IMG/VR virus record: IMGVR_UViG_3300042924_004362
Coordinates: 1 to 32,345 of that record
Strand: one strand, 5' to 3'
Source of the DNA: a virus
Length of the DNA: 32,345 nt
The notes under the pieces are model-generated. The model had not been told where the DNA came from. It searched no databases and saw only the letters and a program-made list of their open reading frames with translations. Position 1 is the first letter of the stretch; the number at the start of each line of letters is the position of its first letter. Position numbers and translations under genes: made by a program. This document shows, one piece after another, positions 2,659-5,888 of this stretch.

Positions 2659-2686
2659 ATGTAAAGGAAATTTAGTATATTTACAT
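2659..2686 (+). promoter_or_regulatory. Inverted-repeat promoter element before RNA A
   Basis: ATGTAAAGG and TATTTACAT form arms around a 10-bp centre; seven outer bases (ATGTAAA/TTTACAT) match exactly. The same 9+10+9 design, with perfect arms, is at 12601-12628. TATATTTA (2676-2683) fits the TAnnTTTA -7 box, and the start expected about 5 nt later is 2688, the first base of RNA A. No TTTG is found at the -33 position, so an activator site is a possible substitute. Confidence 0.5.
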
Positions 2687-2687
2687 A

Positions 2688-2786
2688 TCCTTTGGAACGG
2701 AGTAGACAACGTCCCAAAGGAGCTTGAAGCAAATCTTTGTTTCACCTTTGCCCCGATAGATGTCTACCTATTGGGGCATTTTTTTT
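2688..2786 (+). ncRNA. Structured RNA A: two hairpins with a kissing-loop pairing
   Basis: Hairpin 1 is TCCTTTGG (2688-2695) with CCAAAGGA (2714-2721), extended by ACG/CGT, leaving loop GAGTAGACAA. The linker 2722-2748 ends in TTTGTTTCACCTT. Hairpin 2 (2749-2778) is an 11-bp terminator stem with loop ATGTCTAC (2760-2767), then eight T. GTAGACA (2702-2708) in loop 1 is complementary over all 7 bases to TGTCTAC (2761-2767) in loop 2. The same layout with different pairing sequences is found at 4819-4915, so the kissing interaction covaries. The U-tract ends 13 nt before the methyltransferase ATG. It may act as a 5' attenuator or as a free RNA of about 99 nt. Confidence 0.7.
2749..2786 (+). terminator. 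Intrinsic terminator, 3' part of RNA A
   Basis: TGCCCCGATAG pairs with CTATTGGGGCA (one G-T pair) around an 8-nt loop, followed by eight T. It is the strongest terminator in the left half and lies directly in front of the methyltransferase gene, so it would block read-through unless relieved. Confidence 0.85.
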
Positions 2787-2799
2787 GTAAAAAATTACT

Positions 2800-4167
2800 A
2801 TGAAAATTAATATTGATGAAATCAAAATCATTAATAGAAAGAGAAACGCTGGAGATGTTAGCCAGTTATGTGCTTCTATTAATGAAATCGGATTATTGCA
2901 GCCAGTTACTGTAACTTCCGACTTTAAACTTATTGCAGGATTGCATAGGATAACAGCTTGTAAATTACTTGGATGGAAGGATATTGAAGTAAATGTCGTT
3001 GACTACGATAGTAATTTATTAAGTGAACTTGCTGAGATTGATGAAAACCTTATTAGGAATGAATTAACCGTACTTGATAAAAGCATTCAAACAAATCGTA
3101 GGAAAGAAATATACGAAATATTGCATCCAGAAACTAAACATGGTGGAGATAGGAAATCAAGTGGCACAGAATGCCACTTGATAATAAATAAAACTGAAAG
3201 TTTTGTAGAGCAAACCGCAAAAGCAACTAATCAATCCGAAAGAAAAATTAGAAAAGACGCAAGGATAGGTAAAATACTAAAACCTTTAGAACATTTAATT
3301 ACAGGAACAAAATTTGAAGACAATCTTAAAGAACTTGATGAACTTGTAAAGATTGCAGACGATAAAAAAGGAGAGGGTATTGAAGTAGCAAAACAAGTGT
3401 CATTAATTGCTATTGAAAATAAAAAATATAAAATATCTGATGCTTACAAACATTATAAGAAAAATATAGAACAACAAAAAATTCAAGCATTAAGAGAGGA
3501 TTCAAAAAATACATTTACAGAACCTTTAAAAGTAAAACAAGGCGAATGGTTTGAATTAGGCAAACATAAGATTTATTGCGGAAGTAATTTGGATGATAAT
3601 TTTATCAATAATTTACCTAATTGTTCCTTTGCTTTTGCTGACCCTCCTTATAATGCAAATGTTGACGAATGGGATTCAGGATTTACATGGAATCAAGATT
3701 ATTTACAAAATTATGCAAAAGTTGTGGCGGTAACTCCAGGGGGATGGCAAGCAAACAAATTGTATCAAGATAGTAAAATGAATTATATATGGGAATTAGC
3801 TTGCTGGATTAAAAACGGAATGACCCACGGAAAATGTGGATATTCAAACTGGATAAAAATAGCAATATTTGCTAAAGAACAAAATAAACCTAAAATATCT
3901 CAAGACTTTAAGGACATTACAATTAAAACAAGTGAAACTACCGAGACAAGCCATAAAGGTAGAAAGCCATATCCTTTAATGGAATGGTTGATAGATATGT
4001 TTACCGAAGTTGAAGATATAGTAATTGATCCTTTTTTAGGAAGCGGTACAACTCTTCTGCAGTGCGAAAAAATGGGAAGAGTTTGTTATGCGGCTGAAAT
4101 GAATGTTGATTATTGTAATGACATTGTAGAAAGATTTAACAATTTAAAAAATAAAGCAAATGACTAA
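2800..4167 (+). CDS. ParB-domain / adenine-N6 DNA methyltransferase fusion
   Basis: 455 residues in three parts. Residues 1-95 are a ParB/Srx-like domain, with 'GLLQPVTV' and the signature AGLHRITACKLLGWKDIEV. A basic linker around 105-235 contains a helix-turn-helix-like stretch (FVEQTAKATNQSERKIRKDA). Residues 245-450 are a Rossmann methyltransferase: motif IV DPPY at 281-284 comes before the SAM-binding motif I, DPFLGSGTT at 410-418. That order marks the beta class, and DPPY suggests adenine N6. It would methylate the phage's or host's DNA at a site I cannot predict. ParB-methyltransferase fusions are common in phages, usually as lone enzymes; here the stop overlaps the start of a nuclease gene by 8 nt. 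It is very AT-rich, and a strong terminator hairpin ends 13 nt before the ATG. Confidence 0.88.
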   Translation: MKINIDEIKIINRKRNAGDVSQLCASINEIGLLQPVTVTSDFKLIAGLHRITACKLLGWKDIEVNVVDYDSNLLSELAEIDENLIRNELTVLDKSIQTNRRKEIYEILHPETKHGGDRKSSGTECHLIINKTESFVEQTAKATNQSERKIRKDARIGKILKPLEHLITGTKFEDNLKELDELVKIADDKKGEGIEVAKQVSLIAIENKKYKISDAYKHYKKNIEQQKIQALREDSKNTFTEPLKVKQGEWFELGKHKIYCGSNLDDNFINNLPNCSFAFADPPYNANVDEWDSGFTWNQDYLQNYAKVVAVTPGGWQANKLYQDSKMNYIWELACWIKNGMTHGKCGYSNWIKIAIFAKEQNKPKISQDFKDITIKTSETTETSHKGRKPYPLMEWLIDMFTEVEDIVIDPFLGSGTTLLQCEKMGRVCYAAEMNVDYCNDIVERFNNLKNKAND

Positions 4168-4795
4168 TTTTTCAAAAAGAACCGAAAAGGGAACTGTTTT
4201 AATGAATGAATTAAAATTCAAGCTAATAAAAGACAAAGTAAATTTTTATGAGACAGGAGCCGAAAACTTTAAAAAGTCAAATAAAAATATTGTTAATGAT
4301 ATAAGAAAAAACAATGATTTAACCTCAAATTTTATTAGATACTTTCCTGACCTTACAATAATATTAAACGAGGCTTATTTAATAGAGGTAAAATATAGTA
4401 GCGGTATTGAAAAAAGTTGTTATGAAAATTTAATTAGCCTTGAAAATAATGGTTACAATATTTTTATTTATAGGCAAGACCTTTGTTTTTGCAAACCATC
4501 TGAATTAGCGTTTAAGTTAATGGAGCAATACGATACAATATCAAAGATTAATATACCAGTTGATGATTTTATATGGAGAAATCCAACTAAATTATCTGCA
4601 AAGGATTATAAAATTTATATTGATGCTTATAAAAACCAGCCTACAAGTGGTAATATTTTTGCATATTTTAATTACGATAAAATGAAAATGAATGTAATAC
4701 CTTATGAAACCTTTATTAAAAAAGGAAGGCAAATATTAAGTAATATTGATAATGATATTATTGTGCCAGATAAACAAAATTTTAATTTGTTTTAA
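4160..4795 (+). CDS. PD-(D/E)XK nuclease-like protein, possible restriction partner
   Basis: 211 residues. The catalytic signature is readable: P63-D64 (RYFPDLTIILN), then E76-V77-K78 (YLIEVKYSSG), with the spacing of PD-x(11)-(D/E)xK enzymes. After it comes a helix, then NGYNIFIYRQDL, the strand often following the core. The rest is not recognisable. It overlaps the methyltransferase by 8 nt and ends the AT-rich cassette, so the simple reading is a two-gene modification/restriction system or an exclusion device against other phages. A role in processing methylated DNA, or as a resolvase-like nuclease, is also possible. A second start (MNELKFK) lies 14 codons in. The nuclease fold is fairly likely; the restriction role is inferred from the neighbour only. 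Confidence 0.6.
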   Translation: MTNFSKRTEKGTVLMNELKFKLIKDKVNFYETGAENFKKSNKNIVNDIRKNNDLTSNFIRYFPDLTIILNEAYLIEVKYSSGIEKSCYENLISLENNGYNIFIYRQDLCFCKPSELAFKLMEQYDTISKINIPVDDFIWRNPTKLSAKDYKIYIDAYKNQPTSGNIFAYFNYDKMKMNVIPYETFIKKGRQILSNIDNDIIVPDKQNFNLF

Positions 4796-4814
4796 AATAA
4801 ATTCCTTATCTTTA
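4786..4814 (+). promoter_or_regulatory. Promoter for RNA B
   Basis: TTTG (4786-4789), a 17-bp spacer, TATCTTTA (4807-4814). Spacing is identical to the promoter at 1216-1244. The expected start, about 5 nt downstream, falls at 4819, the first base of RNA B's hairpin 1. It overlaps the last codons of the nuclease gene. Confidence 0.65.
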
Positions 4815-4818
4815 ATCA

Positions 4819-4915
4819 TTCTTTTGAACGGGGTGAAGGTCATTCAAAAGAACTTCGGGACAATATCCGCATTGTTTCAACTAACCCAGTACCCCTTCAC
4901 GTGCTGGGTTTTTTT
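4819..4915 (+). ncRNA. Structured RNA B: second copy of the kissing-loop RNA
   Basis: Hairpin 1 is TTCTTTTGAA (4819-4828) with TTCAAAAGAA (4843-4852). Loop 1 contains CGGGGTGAAGG. The linker 4853-4882 includes CAAT...ATTG and TTGTTTCA, also found in RNA A. Hairpin 2 is AACCCAGTAC (4883-4892) with GTGCTGGGTT (4901-4910), loop CCCTTCAC (4893-4900), then five more T. GTGAAGG (4833-4839) is fully complementary to CCTTCAC (4894-4900), the last 7 of the 8 loop bases, the same register as in RNA A. The U-tract ends 10 nt before the ATG of the replication-initiator-like gene. Shared primary sequence is limited to GAACGG(A/G)GT, the linker end and the T-run. Confidence 0.7.
4883..4915 (+). terminator. 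Intrinsic terminator, 3' part of RNA B
   Basis: A 10-bp stem (one T-G pair) with an 8-nt loop and a run of seven T, two of them inside the stem. It would end transcripts of the methyltransferase/nuclease cassette as well as RNA B. Confidence 0.85.
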
Positions 4916-4925
4916 ATAAATACTT

Positions 4926-5888
4926 ATGAACAAGTTAAACAACAAAATCAAAGATAATTTTACTATTATCCCTAATGACATTATACGAAACAAAAGCCTA
5001 AGCGACCGCGCTCGTTTTATCTTTTGCTACATGGCTTCCATGCCTGATGACTGGAAATTTTACCAGGGCGTAATGGCGAAGGAACTGGGGTACACAAAGG
5101 ACACACTCAGGAAATACATTGAAGAACTTTTGGAAACAGGGTATTTGGACAGGGAACAAAGAAGGGAGGTTGGAAAATTTGATAGTTATGATTATACCTT
5201 AAATTTTTCACCGTGTACTAAAAAAGCCGACACGGGAAAATACCGCGACGGTAAAAATCCGACACGGGAAAAGTCGTCACTAATAAATAAAGACTTAGAA
5301 CAAAGAAAGACTATTATAAATATAAACTTAGACAAAGAGTTTGAAAACGAGTTTTCGACCTTCGAAAAAATTACAATTGATGATTCTCAAAGTTCCAAAG
5401 TAAATCCGTTTACCGTGATTTCTAAGTTGCAAAGTGAAAAAGAAAGAAAAATTGTTGCGCCGCAAAAAGAAAGAAAAGCCGACGCCGAGCCAAAAGCCGA
5501 GCGGAAGCCCAACCCGACATACGAAGCTTTTGTCGTGTTCTGCCAAACCTTTGAACAGTTATCAGGGGCGGCTTACCCGACGGATCAAAAGGGGCATTAT
5601 ATCATGAGCCCCAAAGATGCTGGAGGCATGGTATATCTTTTACGGTGGCTTGAAAAAGTTGATAGGAATAACGACACAAATGAGGCGTTAAAAGTATTTT
5701 TACAAGCCGCCTGGAGTCTGCCTGACAAATGGTTGAAAGCTAATTTTACCCCACCCATTTTATACGGACAGGCAAACAAAGTTTACACGGCTTACCAAAC
5801 GTCTTCCCCAGCGGCAAAGAAAAAGGCGTATGACGATGAAGTGGACAGGCTTTTAGCTGAGGCGATGAAGAAATATCAAACACAATAA
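4926..5888 (+). CDS. Replication-initiator-like protein with N-terminal helix-turn-helix
   Basis: 320 residues. Residues 10-95 read as the winged-helix domain common at the N-terminus of phage replication organisers: FTIIPNDIIRNKSLSDRARF, then YMASMPDDWKFYQGVMAKEL, then DTLRKYIEELLETGYLDREQ and a wing. A long polar, charged linker follows (about 105-200, rich in K, E and A). The C-terminal 110 residues (PTYEAFVVFCQTFEQLSGAA and on to the end) form a helical domain unknown to me. The set-up resembles DnaD-like or replication-initiator proteins that bind the phage origin and bring in the helicase. The next gene may be its partner. It starts 10 nt after the terminator of RNA B, so RNA B could control replication. 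The HTH is firm; the replication role is by analogy. Confidence 0.6.
   Translation: MNKLNNKIKDNFTIIPNDIIRNKSLSDRARFIFCYMASMPDDWKFYQGVMAKELGYTKDTLRKYIEELLETGYLDREQRREVGKFDSYDYTLNFSPCTKKADTGKYRDGKNPTREKSSLINKDLEQRKTIININLDKEFENEFSTFEKITIDDSQSSKVNPFTVISKLQSEKERKIVAPQKERKADAEPKAERKPNPTYEAFVVFCQTFEQLSGAAYPTDQKGHYIMSPKDAGGMVYLLRWLEKVDRNNDTNEALKVFLQAAWSLPDKWLKANFTPPILYGQANKVYTAYQTSSPAAKKKAYDDEVDRLLAEAMKKYQTQ

Follow-up and report, generated by a model that had tools for sequence, protein, structure and literature searches.

Phages that probably infect Bacteroidota carry short leader RNAs located between a predicted promoter and early genes, mostly replication genes, in which the loop of the first hairpin is complementary to the loop of a predicted intrinsic terminator; the matching letters differ from copy to copy while the match is kept. 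We consider, with moderate confidence and in the absence of transcript data, that these RNAs are transcription attenuators of early replication operons in which the loop-loop contact sets terminator read-through. The structure is well supported by covariation, whereas the function, the direction of the effect, and cis rather than trans action are inferred. The RNAs were first noticed as two copies in an IMG/VR virus record (IMGVR_UViG_3300042924_004362), the whole 32,345-base stretch of which was analyzed and is called the window below (Table 1).

Table 1. Positions in the window of the two RNAs, their predicted promoter boxes and the genes that they lead.
Copy	Feature	Position	Strand	Sequence or description	Basis
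1	whole RNA	2688-2786			
1	promoter -7 box	2676-2683	+	TATATTTA (Bacteroidota type TAnnTTTG)	sequence; box position in relatives
1	hairpin 1	2688-2721	+	loop holds GTAGACA (2702-2708)	fold, covariation
1	hairpin 2	2725-2744	+	arms TGAAGCAA/TTGTTTCA, sequence-conserved	fold, alignment
1	terminator hairpin and U-run	2749-2778 and 2779-2786	+	11 bp; loop ATGTCTAC (2760-2767); TGTCTAC (2761-2767) pairs with 2702-2708	sequence, fold, terminator call
1	gene led by the RNA	2800-4167 (ATG at 2800)	+	ParB-like N-terminal region fused to a DNA methyltransferase	Pfam/PHROGs
2	whole RNA	4819-4915			
2	promoter -7 box	4807-4814	+	TATCTTTA	sequence; box position in relatives
2	hairpin 1	4819-4852	+	loop holds GTGAAGG (4833-4839)	fold, covariation
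2	hairpin 2	4857-4878	+	arms GGGACAAT/ATTGTTTC	fold
2	terminator hairpin and U-run	4883-4910 and to 4915	+	10 bp; loop CCCTTCAC (4893-4900); CCTTCAC (4894-4900) pairs with 4833-4839	sequence, fold, terminator call
2	gene led by the RNA	4926-5888 (ATG at 4926)	+	replication initiator (HTH_36; PHROG replication initiation protein)	Pfam/PHROGs

We first reexamined the preliminary description, which had reported two RNAs with a 5' hairpin, a linker ending TTGTTTCA and a terminator hairpin, and confirmed its coordinates, hairpins, exact 7/7 loop complementarity, promoter box spacing and distances to the start codons. The folds of the two copies were more stable than those of dinucleotide shuffles (z = -6.0 and -3.4). 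One correction was necessary: the supposed linker holds a third hairpin (hairpin 2), of which TTGTTTCA is the 3' arm, and its arms GAAnCAA and TTGTTTCA are the most conserved sequence in the RNA. The central claim, an unnamed kissing-loop RNA with covarying loops, was strongly supported. A search against Rfam 15 found only a tRNA in the window, the best sub-threshold hit reached 22.6 bits against a cut-off of 100, and no family was found in 12 relatives. A blastn search of the RNAs in named phages gave chance hits only.

Searching IMG/VR with the replication protein gave 67 loci. A scanner for a hairpin followed by a terminator with a complementary loop found 87 hits in 1.64 Mb of loci against 8 in Markov-shuffled controls, and each preselected RNA was followed by an ORF start. 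When aligned, 42 distinct RNAs showed the three stems and the kissing helix with many double changes, and sliding or shuffling the partners removed the signal. Because these RNAs had been selected for loop matching, we built a covariance model from the nested stems only, ignoring the loop pairing, and searched again. Of 81 distinct sequences of this family (family I), 80 keep at least 7 contiguous complementary loop bases and the other has 6, through about 20 distinct heptamers, whereas exchanging loops between RNAs gave a match in 8%. Importantly, 27 of the 81 had not been preselected for loop pairing, and all 27 keep it. These sequences are related (effective number about 39), and the counts are not independent events. 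Some of the 35-bit model hits on the minus strand are opposite-strand images of one RNA, and apparent same-code duplicates were found to be the same artefact. The test of homologues for loss of loop complementarity, proposed in the preliminary description, was passed. The only family I RNA with a broken kissing pair (GTGGACA against CGTCCAC; locus L169, 11739-11832) lies in a genome whose other leader (locus L051, 1234-1327, same contig, IMGVR_UViG_3300027971_000095) has GTGGACG/CGTCCAC, so its terminator loop matches the other leader's hairpin perfectly; this may be a code in transition or cross-talk.

We next examined the position of the RNAs. All 94 distinct copies tested have a TAnnTTT[GAC] box 3–6 nt before hairpin 1 (background 3.9%) and an ORF start 10–24 nt after the start of the U-run (background 22%), although the -33 element is weakly conserved (13/94 with TTG) and promoters and terminators are consensus calls. 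Of 56 loci of the replication-initiator gene, 53 carry a copy within 2.2 kb upstream on the same strand; of the three exceptions, L065 has a diverged version directly upstream and the other two are distant relatives. Other led genes are ParB-like/methyltransferases, HNH enzymes, a helicase-nuclease and unknowns. Of the three hypotheses offered in the preliminary description, this arrangement fits leader attenuators. Stand-alone phage sRNAs of about 100 nt with targets elsewhere, lying near a gene only because phage genomes are compact, would also have their own promoter box and terminator, but this view is disfavoured and appears very unlikely, since every copy is followed at once by a start codon with no room for another promoter. 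In addition, loop codes and their complements are not enriched elsewhere in the phage (36 seen vs 32.7 expected; 23 vs 25.8). RNAs that multimerise through the loops, as phi29 pRNA does, or that serve as replication primers would be compatible with the location of many copies near replication genes. However, records carry one or two copies with different loops, in front of varied early genes including HNH endonucleases, and each ends in a terminator directly before an ORF; a single RNA per genome serving the packaging motor is therefore not what we observed. A pRNA-like multimer has no support and we regard this possibility as highly improbable, although dimerisation through the loops cannot be excluded.

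Looking upstream of distant ParB-like genes, we found the same layout on another chassis (family II), in which hairpin 1 is short and the terminator has a basal stem, an internal loop and an apical loop with the 7–8 nt complement. RNAalifold on the alignment of this family chose the kissing helix unaided as its structure; that model was accordingly not used for testing, and a kissing-free model was built instead. It found 28 distinct members, all 28 complementary, with about 15 loop codes, including two codes not in the training set. Further single chassis at other loci (L065, L141, L414, L423, L436, L443/L451, L449, L450, L482 and L505) follow the same rule, and several precede replication initiators, a primosomal-like protein or a primase/helicase. 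Those at L065 (5756-5863), L141 (7214-7320), L451 (2863-2985), L482 (minus strand) and L505 (258-380) are unrelated in sequence, have matches of 7 to 10 bases, and probably indicate more families of the same kind. The common element is therefore the layout rather than a sequence family.

On the basis of these results, the best explanation appears to be as follows. Transcription starts 3–6 nt after the box, so that hairpin 1 forms at the very 5' end; about 28 nt further on, the polymerase makes the terminator, then the U-run and then the start codon. The start codon follows the terminator so closely that there is no room for another promoter, so the gene needs read-through. The contact, formed in cis as the terminator loop leaves the polymerase, would set how often this happens, and we think that it most likely slows terminator nucleation and so favours read-through. 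In 78–84-nt transcripts of the two copies, before the terminator's 3' arm is out, the minimum-energy fold pairs the loop complement with hairpin 1's loop; with a polymerase footprint of about 14 nt, this stage falls near the U-run. This favours a kinetic antiterminator, but the timing was reasoned rather than simulated, and kissing is compatible with a formed terminator stem, so it could equally help termination. The distance from hairpin 1 to the terminator is nearly constant (28 nt, sd 1.9), which suits an intramolecular contact, and the lack of enrichment of loop codes elsewhere in the same phages argues for cis action. Alternatively, the contact may stabilise the terminator or make the 5' end resistant to decay, so that the leader mainly sets a low constant expression level or mRNA stability without regulation. 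The strong folds and the start of hairpin 1 within a few nt of the inferred transcription start are consistent with this view, but we consider it unlikely because a plain terminator or 5' hairpin would do this without a strictly maintained, diversified loop match in several unrelated chassis.

Another possibility, which we consider rather unlikely, is a self-complementary feedback RNA acting in trans: the terminated leader would accumulate with gene copy number, and its loops would kiss those of nascent leaders of the same code, competing with the cis contact and shutting down the replication operon, giving copy-number or incompatibility control without an antisense gene. The position before replication genes is in line with this, and loop codes vary while a chassis stays almost constant; for example, the replication-gene leader carries GTGAAGG, GTGCAAG or GTGATAG with 2–4 other differences, and entropy is higher in the loops than in the stems. 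No two copies in one phage share a code, but this absence is not significant (0 seen, 1.3 expected, P = 0.25), and drift with compensation could explain the code changes. Hosts with such elements were not found: neither model gave a hit in 395 genomes sampled from the phylum of one genome (G050), taken as Bacteroidota because its locus L216 is titled a Chitinophagaceae MAG, although this large search used stricter filters and had no positive control. No copy was found by scanner or model in the four cultured Flavobacteriia phages examined. In its broadest and equally doubtful form, this view would mean a widespread, modular control system of phages of Bacteroidota in which each early operon carries its own loop code and the attenuated leader recognises copies of itself in cis and in trans, giving operon-specific and phage-specific feedback on replication, and incompatibility between phages that share a code, without any antisense gene or protein.

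Among known systems, the pT181-type antisense attenuators of plasmid rep genes (PMC4878617) likewise have a promoter, a 5' sensing hairpin with a specificity loop and an intrinsic terminator before a replication gene; their specificity depends on kissing loops, and orthogonal loop variants can be made. In pT181, however, an antiterminator sequence sequesters the terminator stem and a separate antisense RNA provides the kissing partner, whereas here the partner is the terminator's own loop. Mutual information ranked the nested stems and the kissing pairs first and showed no rival antiterminator pairing of the terminator arms, and antisense TAnnTTTG boxes are rarer than background (6/101 vs 16%; other promoter types were not covered), so a pT181-type antisense RNA is not indicated. 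The put RNA of phage HK022 (PMC9378689) shares with the proposed attenuators that phage RNA hairpins made at the start of early transcripts suppress termination in cis without a protein; put is described as acting on RNA polymerase at terminators in general and, to our knowledge, no diversified loop pairing with a terminator is part of it. We found no description of the present layout in the literature collection searched. If the loop rule controls termination, it is a simple new way to build an attenuator, with dozens of natural orthogonal codes, and would show how uncultured phages of an important phylum time their replication genes.

All relatives are metagenomic, and the assignment to phages of Bacteroidota is indirect: the only close relative of the replication gene in the genome collection is a contig binned with a Chitinophagaceae MAG, and the promoter boxes are of the Bacteroidota kind. 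In the window, structural and lysis genes lie on the other strand, to the right. A phage tRNA-Tyr gene (1248-1340) lies on the strand opposite the long reading frame of an SSB-like protein (787-1392, minus), whose GTG start is probably annotated too far upstream. Many leaders (at loci L007, L024, L030, L041, L042, L048, L051 and L054) precede genes related to 'KEIQLTQGKVAIVDD', which look like HNH homing endonucleases, and the same loop code occurs before unrelated genes, as if leader and gene were swapped as cassettes.
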